A stretch of DNA of 53,363 nucleotides from a virus. This document shows positions 6,001 to 47,825 of the stretch, piece after piece. A program made the translations under genes and the position numbers. The DNA lies in IMG/VR virus record IMGVR_UViG_3300009420_000010, positions 1 to 53,363 of that record; one strand, 5' to 3'. The notes below the pieces were generated by a model. That model searched no databases. It was not told the origin of the DNA and saw nothing but the letters and a program-made list of their open reading frames with translations. The stretch's first letter is position 1. Every line of letters begins with the position of its first letter.

Positions 6001-9000
6001 AGGCAATTTTAAAATCTGTACCATCGAATACTATATGTCCTCGTGATGATGAGTAGAAACTAAATTGTCCACTACCACTTAAAAATATTCCAGCCTGTTC
6101 TACTTTTTGTGGTATTGTAGAACCCATAGCAATCACACCACCATTAGATGATGATATGTGTAGTGTTGAAGTCTTTAATCCAAATTCTTCTGATTTGATA
6201 TCAAATGCTGTTCCGTTAAAAGAAATGTAATTAGATGCATCTCCAACTACTTCAAATTTTGTAGTTCCACCATCTGTACCTAAAATTACTCCTGCGGTAG
6301 ATTGGTTGAAATGTGAGAAAGATGTTTTACTTCCAATAACCAAAAACCTATCAGTTCCATCATCTTTCAATGTTATTGCATTTGCAGAACCAACTTGTAT
6401 AAATGAAGTAGAACCACCAACTAAATCTATCTTACCCTCACCTAAACTCATAGATGAATGTGTAGAAGATATTTCTAAATTATTAGCATCTAATTCGAAT
6501 TTCTCAACATCTATATCTACATCACTACCAACAATCCTAGCAGCAGATGAAGTTATTTCTCCACTTGATTTCAATATTAATTTATCGTTAGAACTTGATA
6601 TTGCAGTTTCTGTTAAACCAAATGATGCAATCGTACCTGTACCATTGACAGTTAAATTTCCACCAATAGTAGTAGTTCCTGATATACTTGTGTTACCATC
6701 AAATAAAGCACTTGAACCAGTTATATCCCCATTTTCTTTTACATTGAAATTTGAAGATGAGATAAACATATATCGTGGATGGTCAACTCCACCAATTGCG
6801 GGTGAACCACTTATGAAAATATTGTTACTATGGAATGAATGACTATCTGTAGTGAACCCACCAATTAAACCTTCTGATGCAGTAATACTTCCCTCAAATG
6901 TTGCACCACTTGCGATTAAGATACCATCCTTATCCACCATAAAACTTGGGCCCATTTTAATATAATAGTTATTTGGAGATTCTTCGGTCGGTGTAAAATC
7001 TATATAATACTCATCTCTTAATGCATCAAATGCTGCTGATGAATCACTGCCAGGCCCTTGGTCTGTTTTAAATATTGTAGAATTATCAGCATTTAATGTA
7101 ATGTTACTACCACTTATCTGACCATCTACAATTGCCCAATCACCGATGAAACCAGCGTTTGCAGTAATATCACCACTCATTGTAACATTACCCTCTGGAG
7201 TGACATGGAAATTACTTGAACTTATTTCTATATTACCACCACTACCACTTACAAATGCACTCGAACCACCTAAGAAAAAATTAGGTGTTAAAATATCTAC
7301 ATTACTACCACTTAATGTTGTAGTACCTGATGAGAATATTTCGATGTTACCATTTGAACCACTTACAAAAGAACTACCAGCTTGTCCTAAGAAGAACTGG
7401 TCGGTAACAACTTCAAATGTGCTTGGGTTTGTTCTAAATTTTAAATATCTATCTTGTGAAGTATGAGCATCTACTATCTCTAACCCAACTCCATCATAAT
7501 CTTCACTTGCAGTTAATCTATCCCCGATAGAACCACTCCACAATAAAAATCCACCCTTACTTTCTGCAATTGTTCTGTCAAACCCATTATATCCAATAGA
7601 CCGTAAGAATGCAGAAGATACTCCTGCCATCTCAAAACCACTACCTTGTGTAGAACCAATGTATAATGAACCACTAAGTAAGTTATCCTCACCATCGATA
7701 TTTAATGGTGCACCTGTAAATTCTATGTTTTGACCTATCGTGAATGTTTCTGCAATATTATTATTTACATCATAAAACTCTACTAAGAAATCATATAAAT
7801 CTGGTTGTTTGGGTAATGGATATGCCATCGGAAGTACTACCCTAAAGTAATCTGGATTAAAGTTTGTTTCTGCGTGTGGTCGTACAACTACATCATTTAT
7901 AATTGCCCTACCAGCATTTAATTTAAATTTTAATTTAAGAGTTGGACCAATATCACTCGGCGTTATGAACGTAGTATAAATACCTGGTATTGAACCCTCA
8001 TTTAAGTTATTATTCCCTATATCTACTTTACCTACTGATTGATATGTATCGGATAAAGTACCACCTATTAATGCTGCTTCCGATACCAATACATCTAACT
8101 CAAAATCTTTTTCTACATCATCGTTATCTTGTACTTTATCTTCCTTGAAATAATGTGCATTAAAAGTAATTGAATAAGGTACACCCTTTTCTAATGCAAA
8201 ACTACCCGATGTTGTAAGTTCAACTGATGAACCTACTGCATAGTTTGAACCACTAATCTCAATACCATCTAAAATCTTACTATCATTTCTTGCAGCAGTA
8301 CCACCATTTAACAACCAATAATTATCAACAATACTTTGAGTATGAAAATAACCTATATTTAAAAATCCATCTACACTATATGGGTCTATTAAAGTTTGTG
8401 GGGATTCGATTGTACCCTCATGTAGTAATTCAAAATCTCCAAGTGAACCTTGACTCTTTCCATAAATTTTTGTCTTGTAAACATCCCCACTAAATGTTCG
8501 TAGGTTTGCGACTGTTACATCAGCAAAAGAACGATTATGTGTTGCACTAAGTGATTGTTCAGGAAAAGGTGTATAAGACATTGTAACTTCAGATTGTCCA
8601 TTCCCAGCAACCTCGTCTGCTATAATTGGAACTGGTATTTTTTCTAATGTATCTTTTCTTGTAATAAAGAAATCATCTACTGGTACAATCGTTTCTTCAT
8701 TTAAAACTTTTTTAATACTTGTATGGAATGAAGTAGGTACATCAAACTCTTCTGCTGGATATTTAACTAAATCAATTTTTGGTGATTTAATAGTTAGAGT
8801 TGCACCAATTAATGCACTCGATGCCTTATCCTTTGTGGTTTCATTTGATTCTTCAAGTTGGTGTACTCTCATTGAGAATCTATCTTGTTCAGGTGATGAC
8901 CTTCTTACTAATCTCCCCCTTGACCTAAACCCAGAATTTCTAAATGGATTTGATTTTGATTTTTTACTTGATTTAAATATTTCATTTATTTGTCCAATCT

Positions 9001-9760
9001 GACCCAATCCCTCTGCTGTTGGATTCTTTGGAAATCCTGGTGGTGGAGCAATTGGTGCTGGTAGTGGTGTTAAATCTGGAGCAGGATTTGCTTCAATACT
9101 ACCACTCAATACAACTGAACCACTTGGTGCTAATTGTTCTATAAAAGGTTTAACAACTTCTGTGACAGTTACTCTTGGTTGTTGATAAAAGAAAATTGGT
9201 TGTGAATTAGGTAATGCCGCATTAATAAAAATTGGTCTTACATATCGTACATTATAAACACCTTGAAATTCTGTTGGAACATCTTGAGCATTTTGTGCAG
9301 TAAGTTGGTCTATAAATTCTTCGGATAAATTAGCTGGATTAATGTTTCCAAAACTTTTAGGGTCGGTTATCTGAGAATCAGTTATTTCATCTTTGTTGTT
9401 TTCTAAACCTGATATCTGTTGATAGTTAGTTTTAAGTTCCCCAACAATATACATAAAACCATCACCAGGTATAACATCATCATATACCTCTATTGATACA
9501 CGGCGTGCACCACCCTCAAGATAATTTGTTATTGCTTCAGTATAGACAGTGTTCCCACCCGCATCTAATATTTCAACTTTAAGTTCTACATTGTCTGCTA
9601 AGAAAGGTGAACCTGCAACTAAGAATGATGATTTACCTTGTGGTATTTGGTTTGGAAAATCGTAAACTTGAAAGTATTGGGAAGTTAACCCAGTCTCTTC
9701 GACAAGTATATCTATATCCTTTAAACCTTGATATTTGTTGATTCTCTTTAAGATTGCCAT
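2..9760 (-). CDS. Giant repeat-rich tail fibre/adhesin, partial (3' end beyond window)
   Basis: One uninterrupted reading frame begins at ATG 9758-9760 (MAILKRINKYQGLKD) and runs through the left edge without a stop, giving at least 3,253 residues. The N-terminal part (about 1-220) probably anchors to the virion. A Pro-rich linker follows (about 223-250), then a basic Ser/Arg patch. From about residue 700 the chain is Ser/Gly/Thr/Asp-rich with short beta-strand units. Between nucleotides 840 and 6480 about a dozen copies of a unit of roughly 100-110 residues repeat; each carries a variant of FELDAGxGDLQISSxHKSMSLGDG, followed by Gly-rich turns such as AGFWLANNNTDxEF. This suits a long trimeric beta-structured fibre. 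No enzymatic motif was seen. A TATAAATA box lies 65 bp upstream on the same strand. Receptor binding is inferred from composition and size only. Confidence 0.85.
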   Translation of the reverse strand, partial: MAILKRINKYQGLKDIDILVEETGLTSQYFQVYDFPNQIPQGKSSFLVAGSPFLADNVELKVEILDAGGNTVYTEAITNYLEGGARRVSIEVYDDVIPGDGFMYIVGELKTNYQQISGLENNKDEITDSQITDPKSFGNINPANLSEEFIDQLTAQNAQDVPTEFQGVYNVRYVRPIFINAALPNSQPIFFYQQPRVTVTEVVKPFIEQLAPSGSVVLSGSIEANPAPDLTPLPAPIAPPPGFPKNPTAEGLGQIGQINEIFKSSKKSKSNPFRNSGFRSRGRLVRRSSPEQDRFSMRVHQLEESNETTKDKASSALIGATLTIKSPKIDLVKYPAEEFDVPTSFHTSIKKVLNEETIVPVDDFFITRKDTLEKIPVPIIADEVAGNGQSEVTMSYTPFPEQSLSATHNRSFADVTVANLRTFSGDVYKTKIYGKSQGSLGDFELLHEGTIESPQTLIDPYSVDGFLNIGYFHTQSIVDNYWLLNGGTAARNDSKILDGIEISGSNYAVGSSVELTTSGSFALEKGVPYSITFNAHYFKEDKVQDNDDVEKDFELDVLVSEAALIGGTLSDTYQSVGKVDIGNNNLNEGSIPGIYTTFITPSDIGPTLKLKFKLNAGRAIINDVVVRPHAETNFNPDYFRVVLPMAYPLPKQPDLYDFLVEFYDVNNNIAETFTIGQNIEFTGAPLNIDGEDNLLSGSLYIGSTQGSGFEMAGVSSAFLRSIGYNGFDRTIAESKGGFLLWSGSIGDRLTASEDYDGVGLEIVDAHTSQDRYLKFRTNPSTFEVVTDQFFLGQAGSSFVSGSNGNIEIFSSGTTTLSGSNVDILTPNFFLGGSSAFVSGSGGNIEISSSNFHVTPEGNVTMSGDITANAGFIGDWAIVDGQISGSNITLNADNSTIFKTDQGPGSDSSAAFDALRDEYYIDFTPTEESPNNYYIKMGPSFMVDKDGILIASGATFEGSITASEGLIGGFTTDSHSFHSNNIFISGSPAIGGVDHPRYMFISSSNFNVKENGDITGSSALFDGNTSISGTTTIGGNLTVNGTGTIASFGLTETAISSSNDKLILKSSGEITSSAARIVGSDVDIDVEKFELDANNLEISSTHSSMSLGEGKIDLVGGSTSFIQVGSANAITLKDDGTDRFLVIGSKTSFSHFNQSTAGVILGTDGGTTKFEVVGDASNYISFNGTAFDIKSEEFGLKTSTLHISSSNGGVIAMGSTIPQKVEQAGIFLSGSGQFSFYSSSRGHIVFDGTDFKIASKNLTIDTSTLDINTAGGGNIALGSGTPSLSAAGIFLSGSGDFNFQKDGNNFIRQSGGAFQIKADTFDLDATTLIMDSAGDSGNGIIRLGASGGPSSPTNGTAGIYMDGGGALNVVGNATNFFRVDGGSFTIKSDTFDLQTTTFSASSAGTGKISLGQTPPTRYDSGNGIFFDGDANFLIGSASGDKIQFTNGDFTVQVGSLELDASNIEISSTNASMSLGEGNIILDGANNKIKVGKTTNKLIEIVGSSTQGYIATGKDSATSTTAGFWLANNNTDPEFAVGDSTDFIRFNGGNLDINSQKLEIAASTLQLSTTEASMSLGHNAQSGSYGRVILEGAGVPTLRIGKQAHTITLATGSGIYMDGDGNFRFGDDDGGIKFNNGNFSITGSDVDIDVTDINITSTGFRLSSTNASMSLGTNDQLLVHANSSSPFLSIGQSTKGYGQTGIFLGYINSVSRPRVSFVGSTGHFKVDQDVDIKTETFEMDANSGDLQISSAHKSMSLGDQSIVLDGPNKKITVGTGNQISIVGGASDNFITMGSKTGMDSTQGSGTAGIIIGMDGSNPQAEFVKSATEYFIYDNGIDMKTLNFELDAGTGDLQISSAQKSMSLGDGNVILDGLEKAIILNSGSNSITLQTNATDSFMVMGSKTSFTEEGSGTAGILIGMDGSNPQAEFVKSATDYFIFDDGLDIKTTKLELDAGSLQLSNTHNSMSLSPDSSNPIRMVGDGTDAFITMGGKSSFGNEGSGTAGIIIGMDASNPQAEFVKNSTNYFIFDDGIDIKTDTFKLDTTRLDIDSSTSRVQVFDSEGDEVLRLGEISDSASDLYGLKVYDGAGTGSTDTLVKLGGEGNEIAGWTITNDRLSGGNMIIRQDGTIESAGFASDVAGSGFRLTAAQGGFLEVENAKIRGTLATAVFEKESVNAVGGQLYVANSTVLTSSAFAVNAIHTAAQETMSVANVTGFSSGEILSLKKVSSTGFATEYVKVYSASRDDISSDVNFAGNLFVTRSFGQGVTGDSGSLGESPAVSQSYSGSQVIVSTGKLNTGYIRLNANPNDETTPYMDIVERTGSGIYDVDLKVRLGDLSGISSGLLFGNTSPGFGIFTENGFFSGGITATTGSITGQLFVNTSDSERLILGVDISGTNDGLHINDNNYWYTTGAWKVGGSTYNISNDSSGNISLNPKSLDINVGTDFELSSTHKSMSFADGDLLLKKEGSDASITVGGTTSKQITIKGSDTQGYIASGKTSATSTTAGFWIANNNTDTEFHIGDAGNFLKYDGGTLTQKIQSYELDANEGDLQISSTHKSMSLADGAVIFGQKSSGVGFGQFGSDSSKAIQITGSNSQGVIRSGKASAADLTEGFWLANNNTDAEFHIGDGTSAIKFDDNQLHITSSKFELDAGEGDLQISSLHKSMSLGDGSFEVIGDQTNNLTKLKVGQHTIQNIQMTGSSNAGILKSGKKGINDLNAGFYMSNEAGTAKFHVGDGTSALKFDGSNLHITASQANLSGDGVTIDVNTFELEAANVEISSGQASMSVGYDDNIAGGINIKGGATSTIGFGSKAAPRMKLSSTSTDSYLSIGNIAFGSETTAGILIGSDDGNHEFRIYKDSDEYFTYDASSGFDLKTDSLEIVTEGLTISGRSGTAATNKISLGTITSDSDTSGQGVFMDGGGHFRVFGDANNFMIVDGGSLQIKSDNVDIQSTVFSLDANSGDLQLSSTQKSASFANGKIVIEGSSTNGSLKIGGVGSVTDTGGSNKGFYAEGDGDFIAKAGANEYIKFDNGKLGIKASDLSILTTGTNKIKMESSASTPIIALGTTLPTAYNNGDGFYVDGTGKLLLGNSSDNHVKYDGSTLTVAGTINIISGDLAGIDGDTISGSYPPASASQDLSFATQVVLDSAGMSLKNADASKTLAIYGATSKIFDGLNSNTYVEVGGKGITQVSGSVTGSVLTNGVLSLYGSGSEKAVFSGTGSLFRGDTQNTFTRVDSNGLTIVDNGVTQGTFTNGTINL
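840..6480 (-). repeat. Tandem ~310-330 bp coding repeats in the giant fibre gene
   Basis: The encoded motif S(M/A)S(L/V)(G/A)xG, preceded by (D/N)LQ(I/L)SS, recurs near nucleotides 860, 1415, 1780, 2100, 2410, 3870, 4185, 4500, 4760, 5045, 5350 and 6445. Spacing is mostly about 310-330 bp, with some gaps and double-spaced intervals. Copies differ at many third positions, so they are old, diverged duplications rather than recent ones. The array could expand or contract by recombination and so tune fibre length. Confidence 0.8.
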
Positions 9761-16814: not shown

Positions 16815-17138
16815 TTAATCATCTGCATGTTCTAATAACTTATTATCATTCTCTTGGTTATTAAACCAGAAATCAACAACTTTACTAAAACTTGCTATAA
16901 ACCCACCTAACAACACCAATAGAATTTCCTTCCACTCTGGCATTAGGTCTTTTCCCTGTCCGATATAGAATAACATCAACATCAGTACACTCATAAATAT
17001 CACCATAATAATTAAAGATACGTACCACTTTCTAGCTTGACGATATTGTATAATCCCAACCAACTCTTTATTAATCCAATGTTTTTGGTCTTGGCGAGTG
17101 GTTACATCTTTTAACTTTGCTATTTTCTTATCAATCAT
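16815..17138 (-). CDS. Holin-like protein with two membrane helices, 107 aa
   Basis: Two hydrophobic segments (YVSLIIMVIFMSVLMLMLFYIG and EILLVLLGGFIASFSKVVDFWF) with a charged N-terminus and C-terminus. GGFIASFSKVVDFWF resembles the last segment of the 3TM phage holin family. Start at ATG 17138 overlaps the upstream TGA (ATGA); a TTG at 17150 also opens the frame. Probable pore former in the inner membrane. Confidence 0.6.
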   Translation of the reverse strand: MIDKKIAKLKDVTTRQDQKHWINKELVGIIQYRQARKWYVSLIIMVIFMSVLMLMLFYIGQGKDLMPEWKEILLVLLGGFIASFSKVVDFWFNNQENDNKLLEHADD

Positions 17139-17869
17139 TTCCAATCCCAAATTTTCAACGCATTATATGTCACACCAAATCCAATTACGGGTTCAGTTAA
17201 TCCAGTATTTTTATCATATTGTACTCCCACAAATGGCCCTATACTAAACTGATTTCTTGGTGGTTTCAGTTTAATGGTTTTTGCTGTACCACCATTCATC
17301 ACCACTCGATTCCCATCAGATTCCCAAACTCTATCTTCGTTATATGCTAAAAATTCATACTTCCCAACTTGGTCAATTATAGGTGCACCAAATGCTAAAT
17401 TTCCATCAAACCCAACATTAGTTTCTGAATCTACTATTGCGTTATTCTGTAATTTATATCCCATTCCACCAAACACTTTCATATAAGCATCTTGTGAACC
17501 AAACTCAAATTGAAACGGAATAGTATTCATATATGCTAATCCCAATTCTATCCCAAGACTATCGAGGTCATCTTTCAGATTTTTAATTTTCTGATTATAC
17601 TCGGTATTCCATTTTACTTGTTCGTAATATTTTACTTGTAAATTTTGAAGTTCATTGTGTTGGTCATTTGATAATACCCTCAAATACTCAACCTCTTGAT
17701 TTAAAGTATCTATCTCAACTTTGTTGACAGTTATTAATCCTTCTTGTCTACCTGAATCTTTGGTTAAAAAATCCATTTCTTGTTGTGCGTAATAATATCT
17801 TATACCCACAACAGCAGATATTATCAAGATGTTTAGTACAACACCAAAAATGGCATCTTTCTTAATCAT
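17135..17869 (-). CDS. Membrane-anchored coiled-coil protein with beta-rich C-terminal domain, 244 aa
   Basis: An N-terminal membrane helix (about 7-24, FGVVLNILIISAVVGI), a long coiled coil (about 30-105), then a beta-rich domain ending in alternating strands (FSIGPFVGVQYD... PVIGFGVTYNAL). The anchor-plus-periplasmic-coil layout is like an inner-membrane spanin, but the C-terminal domain looks like outer-membrane strands. It could bridge inner and outer membranes. Start ATG overlaps the preceding TAA (TAATG). Not assigned to a family. Confidence 0.6.
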   Translation of the reverse strand: MIKKDAIFGVVLNILIISAVVGIRYYYAQQEMDFLTKDSGRQEGLITVNKVEIDTLNQEVEYLRVLSNDQHNELQNLQVKYYEQVKWNTEYNQKIKNLKDDLDSLGIELGLAYMNTIPFQFEFGSQDAYMKVFGGMGYKLQNNAIVDSETNVGFDGNLAFGAPIIDQVGKYEFLAYNEDRVWESDGNRVVMNGGTAKTIKLKPPRNQFSIGPFVGVQYDKNTGLTEPVIGFGVTYNALKIWDWK

Positions 17870-18396
17870 TAGTCAAGTGTAGAGAGTGCATCATCAATAG
17901 CTTTTCTTACTGCTCCACCCAACTCTGTTTTGTTGAATGGTACATCTTCAGAGATTTGTAATCCTGTCGCTGTAATTGTTGTTGCAATTTCACCCTCACC
18001 TTTAGATGATTTAATGATACCTGATTTGGAATTTTCCAACTTAACTAATAACCTAACTTCTGTTTTAGTACTTCTACGATTAAATAATCCTACAATACTA
18101 AATGCTTCATTTGGTTTTCCAAGATACACTACTTCTACCGATGCTACGAAATCTGAATTATTATCATCAGTTAAAATATACCTTGTATCTGAAAATGCTT
18201 CTTGTAATAGTTGTCGAATACCAAATGTTATTCTTTCATCTTCAACTGTCACCCTATCAGAAACATCTACAAACTCTGATATTCTCAAAGTTGGTCTAAC
18301 TAAATCTTCACCCACAATTGCAGGTGTTGGTAAATCCTGTCCTTTTATGATTCCCATTATTATGAACCCTAAAAGAAATTTCATTACTATTCTCAT
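17869..18396 (-). CDS. Exported CsgG-like assembly/transport protein
   Basis: 175 residues from ATG 18394-18396, chosen because AAGGAG precedes it and a signal peptide starts there (MRIVMKFLLGFIIMGIIKGQ); the open frame extends upstream into the preceding gene. The mature part has the alternating strand-helix pattern of CsgG-type proteins: FGIRQLLQEAFSDTRY, SDFVASVEVVYLG, EVRLLVKLENSKSG, then GGAVRKAIDDALS at the C-terminus. CsgG-family proteins form outer-membrane export pores or accessory rings. No lipobox is visible, unlike the second CsgG-like protein at 19412. Family call is by pattern only. Confidence 0.55.
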   Translation of the reverse strand: MRIVMKFLLGFIIMGIIKGQDLPTPAIVGEDLVRPTLRISEFVDVSDRVTVEDERITFGIRQLLQEAFSDTRYILTDDNNSDFVASVEVVYLGKPNEAFSIVGLFNRRSTKTEVRLLVKLENSKSGIIKSSKGEGEIATTITATGLQISEDVPFNKTELGGAVRKAIDDALSTLD

Positions 18397-18406
18397 TTTA
18401 TTCTCC

Positions 18407-19402
18407 TTAAAAGTAAGTTCCAAATAATAAACTATACGTTTTACTTCTTTCGCCATAATCATTTACGACCGTATTTATACCCATTGAGAAGCCAAGATTC
18501 AATTTGAATGCTTGACCCACTTTCCAATCCATCGATATGGTTGGAAACATTATTATCGGACTTCTTAATAATAAATATCGTTCACCTGAATTATTACCCT
18601 CATAATATCGCATTATTGTGTATGCCATATAATTACTTATTAACAAATCCACATTACGAAATTTAAGTGGATAATTCATTCCATACACCACACTAATATT
18701 AGCAAAATTATATTCACTAACATTACCATACGTTCCAGTTATAACAATTGCTTCAGCCAATGGTTTTTGTAGGGATTTTGCGTAGGATATTGAAGCTAAC
18801 CAATCCCACCCCTCAAAAGTTTCAAAGGCTAATCCAGTACCATTTATTTGTACATTTTGTTTCTTAGCCTTAAATTTAAATCCTTGTCCGTATGTTACCG
18901 AACCCTTCCTTAAATCATCTGTAAAATTAAAATTACCATCATGTGTTCTACTACCATCAAAACTCTCCGAAGTATAAACACTATTAAATGAAGTTATCCA
19001 GTCGCCAGTTAACGAATCTCTTGTAGTACTCTGAATTGCATAATTCATTTGACCAGCATCAACCGAGATATCATCGGTTTTACTAAATTGTGAAGCAGCA
19101 CTACTTGCAATAACAGATGATAATATTTCTTCAGCAACTCGTACTGCACATGGAAATAAATCTTCAAAATCATTATAAACTGATTCTGCCCACGCTTCTA
19201 ATTCCCCATTTAAAACTTGTTCAAATGTAAAATATCTGGTACGATTATAATAAGTAACTTGAAATCCACCACTATCATCTTCTTGTAGTGAATACGACTC
19301 CTTAATCGTTGTCTGATTGCAGGGGTCAATATAACTATAGAAGAACGACTGGGCAGATATTGTACTACAAAGTAATACTAAGTATATTAATTTCTGCCAC
19401 AT
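18407..19402 (-). CDS. Putative outer-membrane beta-barrel protein, 331 aa
   Basis: Signal peptide MWQKLIYLVLLCSTISAQ, then an N-terminal region with two Cys (DPCNQTT and LFPCAVRV) that could pair in the periplasm. The C-terminal ~200 residues are alternating aromatic strands with the final residue Phe (SLLFGTYF), typical of the beta-barrel assembly signal. It lies between the two CsgG-like genes. The family is not recognised; candidates are an export channel partner or a surface receptor mask. Confidence 0.6.
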   Translation of the reverse strand: MWQKLIYLVLLCSTISAQSFFYSYIDPCNQTTIKESYSLQEDDSGGFQVTYYNRTRYFTFEQVLNGELEAWAESVYNDFEDLFPCAVRVAEEILSSVIASSAASQFSKTDDISVDAGQMNYAIQSTTRDSLTGDWITSFNSVYTSESFDGSRTHDGNFNFTDDLRKGSVTYGQGFKFKAKKQNVQINGTGLAFETFEGWDWLASISYAKSLQKPLAEAIVITGTYGNVSEYNFANISVVYGMNYPLKFRNVDLLISNYMAYTIMRYYEGNNSGERYLLLRSPIIMFPTISMDWKVGQAFKLNLGFSMGINTVVNDYGERSKTYSLLFGTYF

Positions 19403-19411
19403 TCATTTCTT

Positions 19412-20053
19412 TTACCAACCCTTACGGTCTAATGCTCGGATTGCATTAACAACAGCAGTTTCCATTGCTTTGTTACCTGCAGAACTTAAAGAACTTTGAT
19501 TAAACTCCATGTTAGGATTCATTAAAAATCCTTGGCCTGTAGTTTTAGCTCTACCTTGTCCACTACCAACAACATACTGGGTGTTTTCTAAATTAACTAA
19601 TTTAACTTGAATACCTATAATGGTTTCATTACTTGTTATTATTTTCCCACCTTTTATATCCTCAGTAAGATTTACTGCGAAATCATAAATGGTAACATAT
19701 CCCCAATATTTAGCTACATCAATTTTAGCGTTGTTTGCTTTTAAATCATTCAACATCATTAATTGATTATCTCTATCAGCCTCAATAAGATTGAATCTAC
19801 CTGTATAAGATGCCACATTTTCCATTTCTTGGGTAAGACCAAATGCAACCCTTTTTTCTGCAAGTTCTGGATATCTTTCTTCAAGTTCCTTATTAATCTT
19901 TAACTCTACGATTTTTAATCCGTCTACTTTGGTAATTTCTAATTCATCTACCGATTTCTGCTTTTCATACTCACCAACATATTGTTCAGTCGATACGGAT
20001 GCAGCACATCCTATCAACCCCATTAATAACAATACTGAGAATATCTTATTCAT
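19412..20053 (-). CDS. CsgG-like lipoprotein
   Basis: 213 residues with a lipoprotein signal peptide and lipobox LIGCAA (Cys at about 16). The mature domain has RVAFGLTQEMENVASYTGRFNLIEA, a helix carrying DRDNQLMMLNDL, WGYVTIYDFAVN, IGIQVKLVNLENTQYVVGSG and a final helix GNKAMETAVVNAIRAL. This order is that of CsgG/FlgO-type outer-membrane assembly proteins, where the protein inserts as an oligomeric pore or acts as a periplasmic accessory. Its start overlaps the end of the preceding gene by 4 bp. The call rests on motif order read by eye. Confidence 0.65.
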   Translation of the reverse strand: MNKIFSVLLLMGLIGCAASVSTEQYVGEYEKQKSVDELEITKVDGLKIVELKINKELEERYPELAEKRVAFGLTQEMENVASYTGRFNLIEADRDNQLMMLNDLKANNAKIDVAKYWGYVTIYDFAVNLTEDIKGGKIITSNETIIGIQVKLVNLENTQYVVGSGQGRAKTTGQGFLMNPNMEFNQSSLSSAGNKAMETAVVNAIRALDRKGW

Positions 20054-20406
20054 TGTTGTCTCCTATTTGACTTATTTTTACCATTATGGCCACCACCCCT
20101 TTTGCCTTTAGGTTTAGTGTATTCACCACTTTTTTTAACTTTACGTTTACCACCCCAAGTTCTCATTGGAACATCAGTTCCTCTTTGTGTTCGGTATCCG
20201 TATTTGTAATTTAACGCTGTAGATTGATGCCACAAATTTGGGTATCTATACCAACTATATCCTCTACCAAAATTAGAATCTTGATAAATTATTATATACT
20301 CGGCACTAACCTTTGTACTATCAGTTGGATAGACTGGTTTCATATCTACATTAGATATCCCCACCCCAATCACAATACCTAATAGTAATTCGAGTAATCC
20401 TATCAT
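20050..20406 (-). CDS. Small membrane-anchored protein with very basic C-terminus, 118 aa
   Basis: A hydrophobic N-terminus (MIGLLELLLGIVIGVGIS) acts as a signal or anchor. A Tyr/Trp-rich middle (YSWYRYPNLWHQSTALNYKYGYR) precedes a tail rich in Lys, Arg and Gly (KRGGGHNGKNKSNRRQQ). AAAGGA precedes the ATG. Such a tail could bind DNA, phospholipid head groups or lipopolysaccharide. Not recognised. Confidence 0.6.
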   Translation of the reverse strand: MIGLLELLLGIVIGVGISNVDMKPVYPTDSTKVSAEYIIIYQDSNFGRGYSWYRYPNLWHQSTALNYKYGYRTQRGTDVPMRTWGGKRKVKKSGEYTKPKGKRGGGHNGKNKSNRRQQ

Positions 20407-20421
20407 ATAATCCTTTCCGAC

Positions 20422-20832
20422 CTATCTAAAATCAGATAACGGGTCTTTTAATAATTTTTCCAATCGTTTAATCTCACCTTGTAATTTACTAATCTCATTT
20501 TCGAGTTTAATAATATCACCATCATAAGATTTAATCTTTGGGTTTTTTAGTTTATCAACTTTCTCACGAAGATATTGTAGTTCACTATCGTACCCTGCGA
20601 ATATCTCATCATACTTATTGAATTTTTCTGTTACGATTTCGATATCACTTGCATCTGCAAACCCTGTAACTACTTCTTCCAACGAATCAATGCGGGCAGT
20701 AAAACTATACCAACCAGCAATAGCGGTAGAAAGAAAAGTAACAATAGCAACAATGTTATTAATCGATAATCCAAACTTTTTCCCTTTAATCTCTTCAACG
20801 AGATTCTCTGCATCAACTATGTCTTTAGCCAT
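20422..20832 (-). CDS. Membrane protein with long C-terminal coiled coil, 136 aa
   Basis: A cytoplasmic N-terminus (MAKDIVDAENLVEEIKGKKFG), one membrane helix (about 24-42, INNIVAIVTFLSTAIAGWY), then heptad repeats (LQYLREKVDKLKN; IIKLENEISKLQGEIKRLEKLL). Layout resembles i-spanins or other membrane tethers. ATG follows AAGGAGTTAGTT. Confidence 0.6.
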   Translation of the reverse strand: MAKDIVDAENLVEEIKGKKFGLSINNIVAIVTFLSTAIAGWYSFTARIDSLEEVVTGFADASDIEIVTEKFNKYDEIFAGYDSELQYLREKVDKLKNPKIKSYDGDIIKLENEISKLQGEIKRLEKLLKDPLSDFR

Positions 20833-20911: not shown

Positions 20912-21781
20912 TTATATCTCCACGTTTATTGTTAATTGAAAAGTATTACTCAATGGGAATGTTTCATCACCTATGATGTAACCCACTCCTATGTTGTAAC
21001 TTTGATATTTAAAATCTAAACCTACTGACGAATAATTTAACCCATACTCTACATCGTTATAGTATCCAATGTTAGTAGATAATAAATCTTTGTAATTATA
21101 TTTTAAACCCTGACCATGAGTGTACCACCCGTTGTATAAGTTCCATTGATTATAGAATCGAAATTGTTTTACTGGTACTGAAAATCCTACACTAAAACTT
21201 GTAGGTACTTCTGTTTTGTAATTATTAAACTCTGGTGCGGCTCCGAAATCTTTAATCATAATATCTAAATCAACTCGTTCCCATAGATTGTTGAAATGTA
21301 TTCCTGCATCTACGAGTAACCCAGTAGCGGATTCGGTATGTAATGTATGGTTAACAATTTTACCACCAAAACCTATAGCAATATTTTCCACTTTCTTTTT
21401 CTTGTGTTTTAACTTAGTACCCCAGCCTACATATGCAACAAGAGAGTTAGGTTCAAACCTTCCTGATATTGTCCCATACTCATCCGCGATGTTCTGTTCA
21501 CCATAATCAAAATATAATAAACTGAAGGTTATGTTTTTATACCCAACACCAACATAATTATATCCCATATCATCCGTGATGTTAGTTAACCAATTTACTC
21601 GGGTAAAACTTAAATCCACCAAACTATCAGTATTAAAGTAATTACGAGCAGGATTATGAAATGTCAATGATTGATTTCCTAAACTTGCTTCTTCTGCAGT
21701 TGGTGATAATGTTAATATTCTATTAACCTGTCCGAATAATGAACTACATAATAGTAAACTTAGTAATATTTTTTTCATCAT
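20912..21781 (-). CDS. PorV/PorQ-like outer-membrane beta-barrel protein
   Basis: 289 residues. Signal peptide MMKKILLSLLLCSSLFGQ, then LSPTAEEASLGNQSLTFHNPARNYFN, which matches the N-terminal hatch of FCB PorV/PorQ/UPF0164 proteins (a small-residue run followed by an NPA turn). The rest is alternating barrel strands ending in FQLTINVEI. PorV carries cargo from the T9SS translocon to the cell-surface attachment complex, and PorQ-like proteins have related roles. It sits 6 bp downstream of a protein with a T9SS sorting domain, supporting a functional pair. Family is fairly clear, paralog assignment is not. Confidence 0.7.
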   Translation of the reverse strand: MMKKILLSLLLCSSLFGQVNRILTLSPTAEEASLGNQSLTFHNPARNYFNTDSLVDLSFTRVNWLTNITDDMGYNYVGVGYKNITFSLLYFDYGEQNIADEYGTISGRFEPNSLVAYVGWGTKLKHKKKKVENIAIGFGGKIVNHTLHTESATGLLVDAGIHFNNLWERVDLDIMIKDFGAAPEFNNYKTEVPTSFSVGFSVPVKQFRFYNQWNLYNGWYTHGQGLKYNYKDLLSTNIGYYNDVEYGLNYSSVGLDFKYQSYNIGVGYIIGDETFPLSNTFQLTINVEI

Positions 21782-21787
21782 CTCTTC

Positions 21788-24418
21788 CTATTTCACGACC
21801 GTGAATTTGTTTGCTTTAATTCTCTTATCTGTCTCAAGAACAAATATATAAACACCTGGTTCTAACGATTGGTGTTGTTGATAAACACTTTCTTCAGGTA
21901 ACCAAACACTTGGTTGGTTATTAAAATCAAATGTATGAATACCTTGTGAAACTGATTCATCTAATAATGTACCTACATATTGTCCCATTGAATTTAATAT
22001 GTATATCTTTACATCGGTTAGTTCATCTACAAAGAACTGGAACTTAGTAGTTTCATCAAATGGATTTGGATAGTTATAAGTTAGTTCATCATCGTTTGGT
22101 TCACCACCACCGAATGCCCAATACTTATTCCATACCAATACTTTACCATCTTGTCTATCTACTAATAAGTCATTACCACTTGGGTCTCCCGCGGAATACT
22201 TTCCTACGAATTGCACATCTGCTTCAGTCCATTCCGAATCTGGAAAGTTTGCTTGAAAAATCATATTCAACGCAATCATTGGTTCATCTATCCAATACGT
22301 TTCAGGTGCGTTACCTGGTGAGTAATCCATACCACCAAAGGAAACTTTCTGATACCCAATATCATCTGCTTCATGTACGTTTACATAAGTAAACCATGGG
22401 CCTGGAAGAACATCCGTTTTCATATCTATAAATTTTAATTGATTAGTATTAAACTCTACTTCAAACTCAAATCCAGCAACTTGAATTGCTTTTAATTGTT
22501 CAGGTGTAATATATAATGGAACTTCTATTTGGTCACCACTTTGAACCCTGACAGTTGAATCTGCTGGCATTGTAAAAAACACATCGGGTGTAGATGATAC
22601 AATTTTATTTGCCCAAGTACCTGGTGCAGTACCACTGCCCCATCTATAAAATGTATTTCCGTTTACATTAATGTATCCATCACCATCTGTTTCATCAACT
22701 TTAGTACCAGTTGCATTAATATCTCCTGTAAAGAAATATGCCCAATCAGGAAGTGTAACATCTGGATTAGCATCACTACCATATGTAGATATACCTGCAC
22801 CTAAGTTTAAACTTAATGTATCTAATCCAGTCTGAATTGTATTCATAAGTGGGTTGATAACTTCTATCTGTCCAAATTGTAATGTTGCACTTTGGTCAAA
22901 ATCTGCATCAGGAAAGACTGTAAATTCATACTTCTGTGCTCCTAAACTCTCATACCAAACATAAGGAAATGGTTGATTATTTTCTCTTAAAGTATCTATC
23001 GTACCCCAATTCTCGTAAGAGTTTCCATTTAAGTGAGTGTAGTTTTCAAGTATCTGTGATGTATATGCCCATAAAAAATATGAGTCATTTAATTGAAATA
23101 CATCATCTCCATCAACATCTCCGATAAAGTATTCAACTGAATTTAAAGTATCAACTCCCACTACGGATTTAAATTTATTAGACTGAAAATTGAATGAGGC
23201 AATTGCATCATTAAGATTAGTAATTGCGTACCTATCAAGTTCGAGTTGAGTATGAGTTTCTATATTATCCTCAGCATCTGGTGGGAAAAATGAAACACGA
23301 TAATAATTGTTTCGTGGTAATTGAATATTAAAATATCCTCTATCATCTGTATATGTCGAATCATAATAACTAATTCCTAAGAATCCCTCACCTGGTAAAG
23401 TTTGCATTGCAGTTGTAGATTTATCATCATACCAAAATGTAGAAGTATGGTCACCAATTACATCATCGGATAAATCCTCATCTGCAGTATTTACATCATT
23501 AGGTATGCCTTCTATATTATACCAAGTGGAATAACTTGACGGATTACTAGCATCCAATTCAAATTTAATTTTCCAATATGGATAAGTTTTATCATCATCA
23601 GTACCATTACGTTGAGCGTATCTAAAGAATCCCTCAACATCTAAAAGTTTTGGATGAAGTGAAATATCTCCACGAGCTCCACCATCATAAGTTTCTTCTG
23701 TTCCCCAGTTACCATCGATGTAAACCTTGTAATCTAATAGATAGTCGTCTGAAGCGTAAGTGTAGTACCCCATTCCACCACTATAAAGTGTTGGTATTCT
23801 AAATGATTGTGGTTGAAAATTATCCACCACATCATCTATTTTAAAATTTAATTTTATTAATTGTTTCTGTACACCATTACCACCACCAAACTTAAAAGTG
23901 TTTCCGTTGTGTGATACCATAGTAATTCTTAACCAATCATATCGTGCATTCGCTTCTGATATTTCACTATTTGCAGTTTGAATTGAATCTATATACCCAA
24001 CATCAGAATAATGAACTACTTCATATGAGTAATCCGCACCCGCTGTAGAATCTCCCTCGGTTGCAGCTGATAAGTGAGAACCTTTTATTACTTCAGTATC
24101 ATTGTGGTCCCAATCGATTAAATCATTATCAAAGATTATATCTAATCTGAATGCAGTAATATCTGCACCATTATCATCAAGTGTAACTTCCATAGTCAGT
24201 ACACTATCTCTAAATGCATCAAAGTTATTGTTATATAAAGCGGGATTATTTGTATCATCCGCAAGATATGTCTGTAGTTGGAAAGTATCTGAGTCTCTCC
24301 ACCAAGTTTTTGGTAAATTATATTCACCTGTTTGCTTGATTCGAATTATTGGCTCTTGTGCCCACGAAAGGGAAAGTACCAATAATAGAACCATAGACTT
24401 TAAATATTTATTAAACAT
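21788..24418 (-). CDS. Secreted cohesin/dockerin-like protein with T9SS C-terminal sorting domain
   Basis: 876 residues. Signal peptide (MFNKYLKSMVLLLVLSLSWAQ), then beta-rich domains. Two dockerin-like Asp-rich loops occur: GDVDGDDVFQLNDS (~431) and DETDGDGYINVNG (~570). A cohesin-like domain follows (about 617-730; VRVQSGDQIEVPLYI, FEFEVEFNTNQLKFI). The last ~95 residues are a type A T9SS sorting domain: YNYPNPFDETTKFQF, VKIYILNSMGQYVGTLL, GIHTFDF, LEPGVYIFVLETD, ending KFTVVK. Known proteins with this domain cross the outer membrane by T9SS and attach at the surface. The gene is framed by phage baseplate genes upstream and envelope genes downstream, so it is phage-encoded. ATG is preceded by CTGGAG. 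Confidence 0.88.
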   Translation of the reverse strand: MFNKYLKSMVLLLVLSLSWAQEPIIRIKQTGEYNLPKTWWRDSDTFQLQTYLADDTNNPALYNNNFDAFRDSVLTMEVTLDDNGADITAFRLDIIFDNDLIDWDHNDTEVIKGSHLSAATEGDSTAGADYSYEVVHYSDVGYIDSIQTANSEISEANARYDWLRITMVSHNGNTFKFGGGNGVQKQLIKLNFKIDDVVDNFQPQSFRIPTLYSGGMGYYTYASDDYLLDYKVYIDGNWGTEETYDGGARGDISLHPKLLDVEGFFRYAQRNGTDDDKTYPYWKIKFELDASNPSSYSTWYNIEGIPNDVNTADEDLSDDVIGDHTSTFWYDDKSTTAMQTLPGEGFLGISYYDSTYTDDRGYFNIQLPRNNYYRVSFFPPDAEDNIETHTQLELDRYAITNLNDAIASFNFQSNKFKSVVGVDTLNSVEYFIGDVDGDDVFQLNDSYFLWAYTSQILENYTHLNGNSYENWGTIDTLRENNQPFPYVWYESLGAQKYEFTVFPDADFDQSATLQFGQIEVINPLMNTIQTGLDTLSLNLGAGISTYGSDANPDVTLPDWAYFFTGDINATGTKVDETDGDGYINVNGNTFYRWGSGTAPGTWANKIVSSTPDVFFTMPADSTVRVQSGDQIEVPLYITPEQLKAIQVAGFEFEVEFNTNQLKFIDMKTDVLPGPWFTYVNVHEADDIGYQKVSFGGMDYSPGNAPETYWIDEPMIALNMIFQANFPDSEWTEADVQFVGKYSAGDPSGNDLLVDRQDGKVLVWNKYWAFGGGEPNDDELTYNYPNPFDETTKFQFFVDELTDVKIYILNSMGQYVGTLLDESVSQGIHTFDFNNQPSVWLPEESVYQQHQSLEPGVYIFVLETDKRIKANKFTVVK

Positions 24419-24520
24419 TCAAAACTCCAGTAATGTGTTATTCTATCTGTATTAACCTTCCGGTCGCGGGTATGCTAACGGATATATGTGGGAATGTCTG
24501 TTCCTATAATAAATATAATA

Positions 24521-24528
24521 TATTTATA
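24521..24528 (-). promoter_or_regulatory. Putative late promoter box TATAAATA before the envelope cassette
   Basis: TATTTATA on the plus strand, in the 112 bp gap after the tail protein gene and 103 bp upstream of the T9SS-sorted protein start. It would drive the cassette from 24418 downward, timed with virion genes. The exact T4 late octamer and intergenic position support it; AT-rich composition weakens it. Confidence 0.45.
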
Positions 24529-27395: not shown

Positions 27396-30300
27396 TTACT
27401 CTACTTTTAATTTAGAATCACCAGGTTCTTGTGTTACCAACCTTGAAGGTGTAGTAATCGTTATTTCAACTGGGTCTAATCCATCTATCGTGTTGTTTTT
27501 TGTTAAATTGCTACCTTTATAGAATAACCTAAATAGTGATGAATCAAGTGCTACACTCGTGTATGAACTTCTTTCGTATGATGCACTAAATTGGTAATTC
27601 CCATTGTACTCTGTATGATATCCATATCCCTTTGCTATTGAATCCGATAATGAACTCGTATAGTAAGGAACTTTAATATCATTATGTTCTGATAATCTTG
27701 AAGCAGTGATAAAAGGTTGCACCGCTTCTTCAAATGTTATATCTATATCACCGAATGTAATACTTGCTGTTGCATAAAGTGATTGGAATGGTGTTCTTGG
27801 GTCTATCTCTGCTATCTTATTTAATGTTGGATTCCCAAGTATTCCAATTGAACCACTATCCATTGTATATAAATTAATTTCACCCTCATATAAAGGTAAT
27901 GTACCCGAAAGTGTAAATGGATTAGGTGCTGCAGAACTACTTAACCTACTTGATAATTGTATTCCATCTCCAAATTGATTAGCATTTTCATAATATGTAT
28001 TTTCGAAACTTGGTACTTTACCCACTACCTGTTTACTTCTCTCTAAAATATTTGGTTCTATTAATAAACCAAGTGTTGCATTTGTTCTTGCTGGGACCAT
28101 ATTCCTTAATTGACTCCAAATACTTCCATCAAAGAAAGTTATGATTCTCATATAATCCCAAAAGTTATTTGAACGACTATACTTTTTCCAATACTCTCGC
28201 TGTACTCTCTCTAATCCTCGATAGGTATCAGCATATTGGTCTCTTGGGTCACCAATTTCATTATCAAGGTTTATATCTGCTAAGGAATACATTATATCTT
28301 CATTCACTACATCAGTAGGTGAAAAGAATATACCAAGTTTATTACTATCTGTTGGTGCAAAATCCATTGATGACTGTTCAACTCTAATGTTTGATGATAA
28401 GTTACCACTTAGTTTAGTTGCCTCACTTCTAATCTTTGTTGCGTTTCTTCTTTGAGGTCCAATGTTTGGAACTCTTAATTTTTCTTGGTCTACTAAACTT
28501 CTAAATGGATTACCACTAAAGTTAACTGCACTTGCACTTGTATGATAAGATGTTTTATATGATTTATCATCTACCGATTCTGGTAAAGTATTTAAATCAG
28601 TATTATCATTTATTGGTAATCTAAATATCATATTATCATAAGCAGAACTTGTAGTATTACCATTATAACTTTTTGGTGCTTGGACATGATTATCAAATAC
28701 ACTTTGTGATAATGGTTCACTCCACAATCTAAACTCCATCATTGAACCACTAAACCTTGTACCAAATTCTCCGTTACCACCTATATAAAATGTACCATCA
28801 GTATGGAACGCATTATTAAATGCTGCTCCAGCAGAAGCATTTCCATCTATACTTACACTCTCACTTGTTTGATATAAAATAACTTGCCTTGTAGCATCAT
28901 ATTGTTTTGATGTTAACTGATATGTTATATCTTGTGCGTTTGCATCTGTTACTAAATCTAATCCACTCTGTGATACTCGTGTTAACATCACACTCCACAT
29001 ATCATTATTATAAAATGGTTGTAGTGATGATGTCATAAATTGAATACCTGTTGATGCAGATACACTAAATCTTAACTTACCATAAGAATCGGTTGCTCCG
29101 TTATCTTGTAATTGAATTGCAAAACTATGATTACCAACACCTTTCTGAACAATTGTCATATCCTTTGAAGTGGGTGCTCTAAATCTAAATTCTATAGTTT
29201 CTGGTTTAATTCCACTCGTACCATCATCTTGCCAAGGGAATTTTAAATACTCACTCGATTTAAAATCCGCAGCATAACTAAATTTTCGTTTTATTTCATA
29301 ACTAACACTATCATTTAAATCTGGTCCACCATACTCTCGGATTCTTAGTATTGAACTTGGAATACCATAACAATTTATCAACCCTTTCATCGCTCGTTGG
29401 TTACCCTTGTTCTTCATAAAGAACGGCATATTAGCTAAAATTCGTTTCCATATCTCTTCGGTTAATTCTTCTTGTGGTGATTCATATTTATCTGCACCAT
29501 CTGCGGTTTTACCTAACAAGTATTCGGGTAAGATAACTAAATCATTTCCGCTATCAACTTCAAATCCCATACTCTTCGCTACTTCGCGAACTATATCTTT
29601 TGAAATGCCCTCTGATAATTTATTACTCTTTTCATTTATATCCGTGAAGTGTCTAATATAAGACCATATCTCATCAAATTGTTGTCCAGTCATATCCATA
29701 AAATCTAAGAATACTTTATTCTCTGTATCACTCGCCACATGAAGTGGTAAATTATTTACTAAACTATTTTGGTTATAAGTATCAAATTCTTTTGCATATC
29801 CAGTCCAAGTATCAAACCAAGTAGTGAATGTTGAACCACTTGTATGTTCTAACGTAAAGTCTGTACCATCTGCTCTTGAACCACTTGTCTTAGGCCATGA
29901 GGCAGTATAATATTCACCAACTGAACTTGTAGCGTAACTTGATGAGACAGTATATAGATAATTTTCATATGGGTCGAAACTATTTACCACTTGACGTTTC
30001 TTCATATTTATACTAGCTCGTGTATCTGCTGACGAAGATATGTTTATTAAATTATGTGAATCTGTTTTATATCCCTCTATTAATGTTATTTTCTTTTTAA
30101 AATTTCGTAGTCTATTTTCTGCTCCACCAAAGTTAATAAAGTTTCCAAACCCATAATCCGTTCGGTCTAAACCAATTGCATCAGTTCGTTTAGAATAATC
30201 AATTGATAATTGCACATCTAATAAACTACTTGAATGAATATAATTTGTAATATCTTCCTGAACTTGTGTATCAGTTCCAATTAAATCATCATACTTTTTA

Positions 30301-32414
30301 TAATTAGTACTTCTAAAATTGATTGGATTTGTTGTTGAGTTTAAATTTGGAACTCTTAAAAATAATACTTCAGGAGTTTCTTCTACAAACTTTGTTAATT
30401 TTACCATATCTTCATATGGCTCCATTTTTTCTTCTACGAAATAAACTAAATCATTTTTCTCAATCGTTTCTGGTAATGGTGAATATGTTTTAATATATCG
30501 TGCAGTTCTATCTGCCACATCACGTATCGGTAATTTCTTATCACTATCAGGAACTGATGATTTGGGTGCATCAAGTACATTTATACATAAGTGATACCCC
30601 TCTTTAGTAACCATGTAAGTATTTAATCTGGTTACTTTATTTTTTCTAAAAGTTAAAAACATATCGGTGAATACATCATTAAATCTATCTTCACCACTAT
30701 GGTCTGCTTTATTTGCTCCTTCTTCATATGAAGTATCAACTCTTATTCTATTATAATCCATTATCTCAACAACCTTAGCTGTAAAATCAATGGGTACTTG
30801 AGTGAACACATCAATTGGAACTAATTCGTTTTCAAATGTTACGACAGTTTTAAATTTTAGAATAGACTCTTCATCAGTAGCAAAATCTTCAATTATTTCT
30901 TTTGTAATTGGTCTTGGTCTTTCATCAACAATATATTCGTTATCTGGTTCAAGTGGTGATGCCGGAAGTCTATCTGCCGGAACATTTTCATCTTCTGGTA
31001 TGTTATTAATTACTTCTGCAAGTACTTCTTCAGCAGAATTATCAGTATTGACTGTGGTACTTGAACCGCCTCCGCCACTATCTTCAAAATCTTCAGATAA
31101 TCTTAACATATTAATTCTTTTATCTCTATTCTCTAAGAAATGAGTAATACTATTCCACTTACCAAGTGTTGCAGATGTTACATTATTAGCAATAATAGTA
31201 TGATGTTTATCCAGTATTAGATTCCAAACATCTAATGCTCCAGCTTTAAACTCAGTACCAACTTCATTTGCTAAGTACCATTTACCTTGATGTTTAATTG
31301 GGTGATGGTCTGTAGTGGTAAGATTTTTGTAACGAACTAATTTATCTCCATAAGGTCGATTATCCTTAACTACCTTTAATACTTTTGCGTAACCTTGTTC
31401 GGTTTTAACTTTCATACCAGGTCTCATCATCTTGATTGGAATGGTACGATTATTACTTAATTTAATTTTTGTATCCCCAGTAAAACAAACACTTCCATAC
31501 TCATCATTATCTCTATAATCTTCGTAATCTTGGTCAGGACCGGGTGTTGCTTCTAATATTTCTCGTACTGCAACAGGTTCTTTATCGATAGTAGTTTTTA
31601 CAATATCATTGAATAATACTTTTTTATCCTTAGGTCTTGGAGAATTTCTATTTCCCTTATCAACTAAAACTTGAGTTTCTTTCTTAACCTTAATCTCTAC
31701 CATTTTAGTTTCGGTTAATGTGTATTCATACATACCCTTAATAATAATATCACCACCCACCATAGCATCTGTGAACCCTCTTTCGGATTGTCCAGGAGTA
31801 AGTATTAAAACATTACCATCAGTTTTGTCAAATCTGATTGTCCCAGCACCAGAACCACCTTTTCTATTCGGAACATAAACAAAATCTTTATTTATACCAG
31901 CAAAATTCTTACGATATGGTATATTATTAATTAATTGAATATCTACCTTTACTTCATTTTTTGATGGTGAAACTTCTTTCACCACATATTTCATTTCTTT
32001 TGCATATAACTCTTCTAAAGTTTGATTTGTTGGTGTTTCCCCACCTTTGAAAAATCTTGTTTTGCCATTGATAACCTTAGTGGATATTTTTCCCATATTG
32101 ATGTATCCCTCATCGTTCACCATAATGGTTTTCTTTTGTCCAGCTAATCTTCTAAGGAAAAGATACTTTACTTTGAACTCACCTGAATCATATCCTAAAT
32201 CTCTGATGTGGCCACCAATATCTAAATCAATTGTATTATCATTACGGAATAATACATCACCCGTACTAAGAATATCATCTTCCAATAATGTATCTTCCAT
32301 ATCATAGACATAGAAATGTATAAAATCATTAGGGTCTCTACCAAAACCACTAAACAATCTTTTTGGATATTCTAATTGTTCTCTATCTTTTTCAGTTAAG
32401 CCAAATTGTAACAT
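27396..32414 (-). CDS. Large baseplate/tail-tip protein with Hint and LamG-like domains
   Basis: 1,672 residues. A Hint (hedgehog/intein) domain is inserted at about 310-412: it begins CFTGDTKIKLSN (block A, Cys310), has TTTDHHPI (block B) and ends NLILDKHHTIIANN. A flexible acidic, Gly/Ser-rich stretch follows. A LamG/concanavalin-like domain spans about 1068-1241 (IEFRFRAPTSKDMTIVQKG to MMEFRLWSEPLSQSVFDNH). The C-terminal part is Ser/Tyr-rich. Its position among wedge genes suggests a baseplate-periphery or tail-tip role, with LamG for carbohydrate contact. The Hint end lacks the usual His-Asn followed by Cys/Ser/Thr, so full splicing is doubtful, while N-terminal cleavage stays possible. 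Confidence 0.8.
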   Translation of the reverse strand: MLQFGLTEKDREQLEYPKRLFSGFGRDPNDFIHFYVYDMEDTLLEDDILSTGDVLFRNDNTIDLDIGGHIRDLGYDSGEFKVKYLFLRRLAGQKKTIMVNDEGYINMGKISTKVINGKTRFFKGGETPTNQTLEELYAKEMKYVVKEVSPSKNEVKVDIQLINNIPYRKNFAGINKDFVYVPNRKGGSGAGTIRFDKTDGNVLILTPGQSERGFTDAMVGGDIIIKGMYEYTLTETKMVEIKVKKETQVLVDKGNRNSPRPKDKKVLFNDIVKTTIDKEPVAVREILEATPGPDQDYEDYRDNDEYGSVCFTGDTKIKLSNNRTIPIKMMRPGMKVKTEQGYAKVLKVVKDNRPYGDKLVRYKNLTTTDHHPIKHQGKWYLANEVGTEFKAGALDVWNLILDKHHTIIANNVTSATLGKWNSITHFLENRDKRINMLRLSEDFEDSGGGGSSTTVNTDNSAEEVLAEVINNIPEDENVPADRLPASPLEPDNEYIVDERPRPITKEIIEDFATDEESILKFKTVVTFENELVPIDVFTQVPIDFTAKVVEIMDYNRIRVDTSYEEGANKADHSGEDRFNDVFTDMFLTFRKNKVTRLNTYMVTKEGYHLCINVLDAPKSSVPDSDKKLPIRDVADRTARYIKTYSPLPETIEKNDLVYFVEEKMEPYEDMVKLTKFVEETPEVLFLRVPNLNSTTNPINFRSTNYKKYDDLIGTDTQVQEDITNYIHSSSLLDVQLSIDYSKRTDAIGLDRTDYGFGNFINFGGAENRLRNFKKKITLIEGYKTDSHNLINISSSADTRASINMKKRQVVNSFDPYENYLYTVSSSYATSSVGEYYTASWPKTSGSRADGTDFTLEHTSGSTFTTWFDTWTGYAKEFDTYNQNSLVNNLPLHVASDTENKVFLDFMDMTGQQFDEIWSYIRHFTDINEKSNKLSEGISKDIVREVAKSMGFEVDSGNDLVILPEYLLGKTADGADKYESPQEELTEEIWKRILANMPFFMKNKGNQRAMKGLINCYGIPSSILRIREYGGPDLNDSVSYEIKRKFSYAADFKSSEYLKFPWQDDGTSGIKPETIEFRFRAPTSKDMTIVQKGVGNHSFAIQLQDNGATDSYGKLRFSVSASTGIQFMTSSLQPFYNNDMWSVMLTRVSQSGLDLVTDANAQDITYQLTSKQYDATRQVILYQTSESVSIDGNASAGAAFNNAFHTDGTFYIGGNGEFGTRFSGSMMEFRLWSEPLSQSVFDNHVQAPKSYNGNTTSSAYDNMIFRLPINDNTDLNTLPESVDDKSYKTSYHTSASAVNFSGNPFRSLVDQEKLRVPNIGPQRRNATKIRSEATKLSGNLSSNIRVEQSSMDFAPTDSNKLGIFFSPTDVVNEDIMYSLADINLDNEIGDPRDQYADTYRGLERVQREYWKKYSRSNNFWDYMRIITFFDGSIWSQLRNMVPARTNATLGLLIEPNILERSKQVVGKVPSFENTYYENANQFGDGIQLSSRLSSSAAPNPFTLSGTLPLYEGEINLYTMDSGSIGILGNPTLNKIAEIDPRTPFQSLYATASITFGDIDITFEEAVQPFITASRLSEHNDIKVPYYTSSLSDSIAKGYGYHTEYNGNYQFSASYERSSYTSVALDSSLFRLFYKGSNLTKNNTIDGLDPVEITITTPSRLVTQEPGDSKLKVE

Positions 32415-47791: not shown

Positions 47792-47825
47792 TTTAAATAT
47801 AACCTTTTCATTTTTTATTGTTTTG

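Follow-up and report, generated by a model that had tools for sequence, protein, structure and literature searches.

The locus and its genes

The DNA analysed here, called the window throughout, is the whole of the 53,363-nt virus record IMGVR_UViG_3300009420_000010, a 53-kb fragment. On its minus strand, two neighbouring open reading frames encode proteins of 876 and 289 aa, with 6 bp between them, at the positions and with the spacing given in an earlier note on this DNA. They stand at the head of a series of genes for envelope-type proteins:

24507..24528, minus strand: possible late-promoter-like motif (TATAAATA...ATATTTATTAT), weak; from the sequence, partly conserved 5' of the cargo gene in relatives
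21788..24418, minus strand: T9SS cargo of 876 aa with signal peptide, cohesin-type module and type A C-terminal sorting domain (CTD); from TIGR04183, homologues and cohesin fold
22120..22555, minus strand: cohesin-like module of the cargo, from residue 622, end approximate; from Pfam Cohesin and Foldseek
21788..22072, minus strand: T9SS type A CTD of the cargo, residues 783-876; from TIGR04183 and invariant residues
20912..21781, minus strand: PorV/PorQ-family outer-membrane protein of 289 aa, candidate dedicated shuttle; from NF033709, PDB PorV, adjacency and a phage-only clade
20422..20832, minus strand: one-TM, coiled-coil protein of 136 aa; from the sequence, syntenic in relatives, positional counterpart immuto gp016
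20050..20406, minus strand: small protein of 118 aa, present in only some relatives; from synteny
19412..20053, minus strand: lipoprotein of 213 aa (LIGC lipobox) with a CsgG/PelC-type fold; from Foldseek, hhalign and immuto gp017 (5e-48)
18407..19402, minus strand: exported protein of 331 aa, perhaps an outer-membrane component, with an N-terminal YxYxDPC motif; from a signal peptide read by eye, conservation and immuto gp018 (4e-14)
17869..18462, minus strand: exported protein of 197 aa, homologue of the 213-aa lipoprotein; from hhalign (95.9%, E 5e-9) and immuto gp019 (1e-15)
17135..17869, minus strand: protein of 244 aa with an N-terminal TM, a coiled coil and a conserved C-terminal domain (weak DUF6808); from DUF6808 and synteny

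The pair sits between baseplate and other phage genes and is repeated in dozens of viral contigs, which supports the assumption of the earlier note that this is phage and not host DNA. That the phage is lytic, which the note also took for granted, is not established by a 53-kb fragment; no integrase was noticed among its annotated parts. The motif 5' of the cargo gene and the location beside tail genes, both weak indications, suggest that the cluster is expressed late.

Several other features of the minus strand deserve mention in their own right. An open frame with many near-repeats (2-9760; 3,253 codons or more) runs off the contig end and is probably a giant tail fibre or adhesin. A tail-region protein of 1,672 aa (27396-32414) includes a Hint-type (Vint) autoprocessing domain (residues 309-418, 67.7 bits), which could be an intein-like or self-cleaving element. 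Genes for host metabolism and protein maturation are represented by an asparagine synthase (43063-44568), a thymidylate synthase-like protein (44552-45238) and a peptide deformylase with a SEC-C tail (50326-50916).

The T9SS cargo

The C-terminus of the 876-aa protein matches the NCBIfam model TIGR04183 over residues 783-874 (26.8 bits vs a cut-off of 23, E 3.8e-6); Pfam PF18962 scores under its threshold (18.2 bits vs 27). TIGR04183 is matched by all 31 cargo homologues (best E 1e-9), whose alignment shows no variation in YPNPF, in the residues of G-x-Y-x-F or in the terminal KFT, so that a chance origin of the CTD can be excluded. The HMM comparison thus bears out the clear sorting domain that had been read from the sequence. 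The Sec signal peptide, MFNKYLKSMVLLLVLSLSWAQ, was recognised by eye and lies in an N-terminus that is hydrophobic in the aligned homologues; all signal peptides of the module and the lipobox were assigned by eye.

The predicted structure of the cargo is of low confidence (mean pLDDT 54). Within it, the CTD, for which a seven-strand Ig-like fold is expected, is modelled as six strands over residues 789-873, and Foldseek finds cohesins (E 1e-8, target TM ~0.7). The Pfam Cohesin model remains slightly under its cut-off in the window protein (21.9 bits vs 24.1, residues 622-669) and is passed by relatives at 36-46 bits. Of the two modules proposed earlier, the cohesin-like one is therefore upheld by Foldseek and by the relatives, while the dockerin-like one, based on reading only, finds no library match in the window protein.

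The PorV/PorQ-family neighbour

The PorV/PorQ-like character ascribed to the 289-aa protein is retained at the level of the family. The family model NF033709 is reached marginally (90.1 bits vs a cut-off of 90) and matches 32 of 33 homologues at E<=1e-3, and a profile of the protein finds the solved PorV structure 6h3i in the PDB (E=1.4e-14). The equivalog cut-offs for PorV proper (NF033710, 48.9 bits vs 250) and PorQ proper (NF033711, 55.2 bits vs 220) are both missed, which makes the protein a relative of PorV and PorQ and not an orthologue of either. It is also short, with 289 aa compared to ~370-435 aa for host PorV open reading frames, and its profile is weakly similar to TodX-type channels. 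In a tree with host PorV and its paralogues, the 33 phage PorV-like proteins form a single clade (support 1.0) apart from host PorV; the rooting of this tree is not settled, and neither, hence, is the nearest host group.

Conservation of the gene pair

Relatives of the cargo were found in 58 viral loci, some of which are near-identical phages from different samples. They comprise 31 distinct cargo proteins (window included) with 56-85% identity to that of the window. A PorV-like gene follows the cargo gene in 48 of 48 phage loci, a count taking in loci with at least 900 bases downstream of the cargo gene, at an intergenic distance of -4 to 243 bases. Viewed from the other side, the cargo gene is located directly upstream in 62 of 63 PorV-like loci, the sole exception being a 4.2-kb fragment (L288) with broken frames upstream. 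Compared with three relatives, the cargo has a dN/dS of 0.16-0.18 and the PorV-like protein one of 0.14-0.23, indicative of purifying selection. Adjacency this strict under such selection speaks against stray gene capture, and strict pairing, low dN/dS and the single phage clade together mark the pair as an old phage possession.

The accompanying envelope genes

The pair belongs to a larger module in the order cargo, PorV-like protein, one-TM protein, CsgG/PelC-fold lipoprotein, Cys-containing exported protein, CsgG-like paralogue and TM-coiled-coil protein. The genes downstream of the pair (136, 213, 331, 197 and 244 aa) recur in almost all loci, and the order is unchanged at cargo identities as low as 56%. 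DUF6808 stays under its cut-off in the 244-aa protein (18.2 bits) and exceeds it in a relative from contig L156 (29.1 vs 24.4).

Searched against the PDB with Foldseek, a model of the 213-aa lipoprotein (pLDDT 66.5) retrieves PelC (E 2e-7) and CsgG (E 3e-6); the similarity is a fold-level resemblance only (TM 0.4-0.5 to CsgG, PelC slightly better). An hhalign comparison of the family with CsgG covers nearly the full length (probability 89%, E 2e-6). This link emerged with a more diverse alignment and the structure search, whereas a single-sequence comparison had aligned the signal peptide only. The Pfam CsgG model gave no sequence match to the module proteins even at permissive E, and hhalign comparisons of the module families with CsgE, CsgF and the HTVC008M curli proteins yielded nothing. 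A curli operon proper was rejected, as CsgF, CsgE and curlin are missing; a neutrophil TPR protein that the lipoprotein profile retrieved from the PDB was judged to be a chance hit. CsgG and PelC are both ring-forming outer-membrane lipoproteins, and a phage-built envelope ring of lipoproteins is thus plausible on the basis of the modelled fold.

Distant relatives, the cultured phage immuto and the host

The wider module extends beyond the close relatives. Three viral contigs (L153, L156 and L157) encode a CTD cargo with little sequence similarity to that of the window, a small TM protein, the lipoprotein and the DPC-motif protein; the paralogue is clearest in L153 and L157. No cultured phage was matched when the window's cargo and PorV-like proteins served as queries, and the cultured Flavobacterium phage vB_FspM_immuto (NC_055915) nevertheless shows the same order in gp015-gp019: cohesin-CTD cargo, small TM protein, lipoprotein family, DPC-motif protein and paralogue. 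TIGR04183 is matched by its gp015 with 44.8 bits, and members of the window families are recognised in gp017 (5e-48), gp018 (4e-14) and gp019 (1e-15). One clear CTD cargo apiece was present in all 11 phage records tested.

Immuto differs from the window in several respects. Its cargo sequence is split across gp014 and gp015, gp017 is devoid of the lipobox cysteine of the 213-aa protein, and no counterpart of the 244-aa protein was found. Above all, a PorV-like gene was found neither in its 160-kb genome nor in the records of L156, L157 and L153, which are possibly fragments. Its absence there implies that the PorV-like gene is not essential to the wider module; judged from these gene contents, the marine clade of the window has either gained the protein or kept it.

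Two variations were seen among the distant modules. Related exported proteins with C-type-lectin-like sequence lie beside them in L164 (10527-11525) and L153 (11089-12072); immuto gp013 is annotated in this way, and the proteins would add one more surface component to this system. In L157 (9659-11332) and L153 (9659-11092), a long linker rich in Gly, Ser and Asn separates the N-terminal motif of the DPC-motif protein from its C-terminal domain.

No SprA translocon was found in the window, nor in five further phage records (81-160 kb), and the cargo should consequently leave the cell via the T9SS of the host. Immuto, the sole cultured phage with the wider module, infects Flavobacterium, and the one bacterial genome containing a contig of a relative phage is a Flavobacteriales MAG with SprA and PorV, linked to the phage by binning only. 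These associations are in line with the host lineage with a T9SS presupposed in the earlier note and make a T9SS-bearing host of Bacteroidota type plausible for the window phage.

The window also harbors a tmRNA (47823-48166, minus strand). Its tag, GTQANLTYAYA, is unlike the Flavobacteriales GENNYALAA type and is without the ALAA-type end seen in the Flavobacteriales tmRNAs examined. Separately, the Flavobacteriales MAG contains a second, shorter tmRNA with the tag ADTSVLALAA (L209, contig C23 of G011, 7011-7352); it has 342 nt, equal to that of the window, and lies on a contig without a match to the window proteins compared.

Proposed mechanism and alternative explanations

The make-up of this strictly conserved marine phage cluster suggests that the phage rebuilds the surface of the infected cell, and the module probably serves to remodel the outer surface of a T9SS-bearing, Bacteroidota-type host. 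The 876-aa cargo would be exported by Sec, its type A CTD would be recognised by the host T9SS, and it would pass out through host SprA. The phage PorV-family barrel would act as dedicated shuttle or surface anchor of the cargo; being encoded directly downstream, it would render the phage independent of the single PorV shared by host cargos. Such a private shuttle could secure export if host PorV is busy, or keep the cargo at the surface. An accompanying envelope assembly is probably formed by the two TM-coiled-coil proteins together with the CsgG/PelC-type lipoproteins and the exported protein with the DPC motif. Display of the cargo on the infected cell is likely, and the displayed cohesin-type protein would most likely alter cell-phage or cell-cell interaction late in infection; its purpose could be to exclude superinfection, to bring cells into contact via cohesin-type modules or to assist egress. 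A more elaborate version, in which a private branch of the T9SS consists of a PorV-type shuttle matched to one phage cargo, together with a phage CsgG/PelC-type ring and a cohesin-bearing coat, is possible but rather doubtful.

Against display with a private shuttle stand the small size of the 289-aa protein, its position barely at the family cut-off and its distance from PorV, as well as the fact that hosts export their type A cargos with one common PorV and without private shuttles (PMC12618676). The service of all type A CTDs by host PorV, and the same distance, also speak for a small outer-membrane channel or receptor decoy, with the cargo using host PorV. The weak TodX-type similarity and immuto, whose cargo keeps its CTD in a phage without the PorV-like gene, point in this direction, too. 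Adjacency in 48 of 48 loci and a PorV/PorQ-family match far stronger than that to channels argue for the shuttle, leaving the channel or decoy with a modest chance of being right.

The envelope genes could alternatively form a lysis or egress module, in which TM-coiled-coil, CsgG/PelC-fold and outer-membrane proteins build a spanin-like or pore device against the thick Bacteroidota envelope while the T9SS protein loosens coats. Such a device would accord with the late position beside tail genes, the rings formed by CsgG-family lipoproteins, the holin-like look of the one-TM small protein gp016 of immuto, and weak matches of the 244-aa protein to Rz-like proteins or LysB; the spanin matches, however, are not significant (E 0.04-0.15). 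Moreover, the best-conserved of the long proteins, a multi-domain CTD cargo for display, has no lytic domain, and the annotated endolysin of immuto is encoded ~6 kb off, outside the cluster. A lytic function is therefore unlikely.

Virion structural genes, with the cargo decorating the virion or serving as a tail adhesin and with the CTD as a by-product of ancestry, are a highly improbable explanation. Tail-region genes (335, 337 and 1672 aa) do lie immediately upstream, and cohesin-type modules could serve in fibres, but Sec-type signal peptides and the lipobox take several members out of the cytoplasm, where virions are assembled, the full CTD is conserved, and the partners are of envelope type. 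Incidental host DNA or recent capture of a host gene, conceivable because the cargo and PorV families are otherwise bacterial, is ruled out for practical purposes by the synteny of the block in dozens of viral contigs, by phage-only clades such as that of the PorV-like proteins, and by the lipoprotein family, which is absent from 146 of 148 Flavobacteriales genomes searched, the two matches being the phage contig of one MAG and a weak partial one.

Relation to known systems

In F. johnsoniae, type A cargos all use a single host PorV, while type B adhesins have a private PorP/SprF shuttle that is often encoded directly downstream; for type B T9SS adhesins, a substrate gene followed immediately by the gene of its private shuttle is a proven arrangement (PMC12618676). 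The phage pair resembles SprB-SprF and Fjoh_3952-3951 (PMC12618676) in having a CTD substrate, here an adhesin-like cargo, followed by an outer-membrane shuttle gene. Unlike SprB-SprF, it combines a type A CTD with a PorV-family partner and is phage-encoded, and by analogy it may be described as the type B layout built with type A parts. With host PorV and the type A cargos of Bacteroidota it shares the CTD and outer-membrane protein families; host PorV, in contrast, is single, larger and not linked to any one cargo, and the phage protein stands in a separate clade and scores under the PorV and PorQ cut-offs.

Phage-encoded T9SS cargo was already reported in 2020 for Cryophage, with superinfection exclusion proposed (PMC7468147). 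As far as the available part of that report goes, Cryophage shares with the window type A sorting domains on phage-encoded proteins; its cargos are enzymes (endoglucanase, GH39) and a PA14 protein whose genes are highly variable between variants, and no shuttle or envelope module is mentioned there, as opposed to the one conserved cargo and fixed operon of the window (PMC7468147). Curli secretion genes are known from pelagimyophages, e.g. CsgF/CsgG of HTVC008M (PMC7029224), and from a T4-like virus of marine Bacteroidetes (PMC7198788). Like the window, these phages place a CsgG-type lipoprotein beside exported proteins in one operon, and a surface role (sibling capture, attachment) has been proposed for them (PMC7029224, PMC7198788). 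The window, on the other hand, is without recognisable CsgF or curlin, its exported protein would use the T9SS, and its resemblance to CsgG is remote.

The display proposed in the earlier note is strengthened insofar as a T9SS substrate and a PorV-family candidate shuttle do stand side by side in phage DNA. Its statement that no such phage system had been described does not hold for the T9SS cargo, given Cryophage (PMC7468147), and stands for the PorV-family partner and the combined module, on which no report was found among open-licence papers. Phage T9SS cargo and phage CsgG genes are therefore known individually, and the PorV-family partner and the combined module are apparently new. The concept, phage modification of the cell surface, is likewise familiar; the secretion pathway and the gene set have not been described together.

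Bacteroidota are major degraders of marine algal matter. If the proposed reading is true, phages would seize a whole secretion pathway of this group to redesign the surface of the infected cell, and a dedicated type A shuttle would provide a natural experiment on the choice of cargo by PorV-family proteins.
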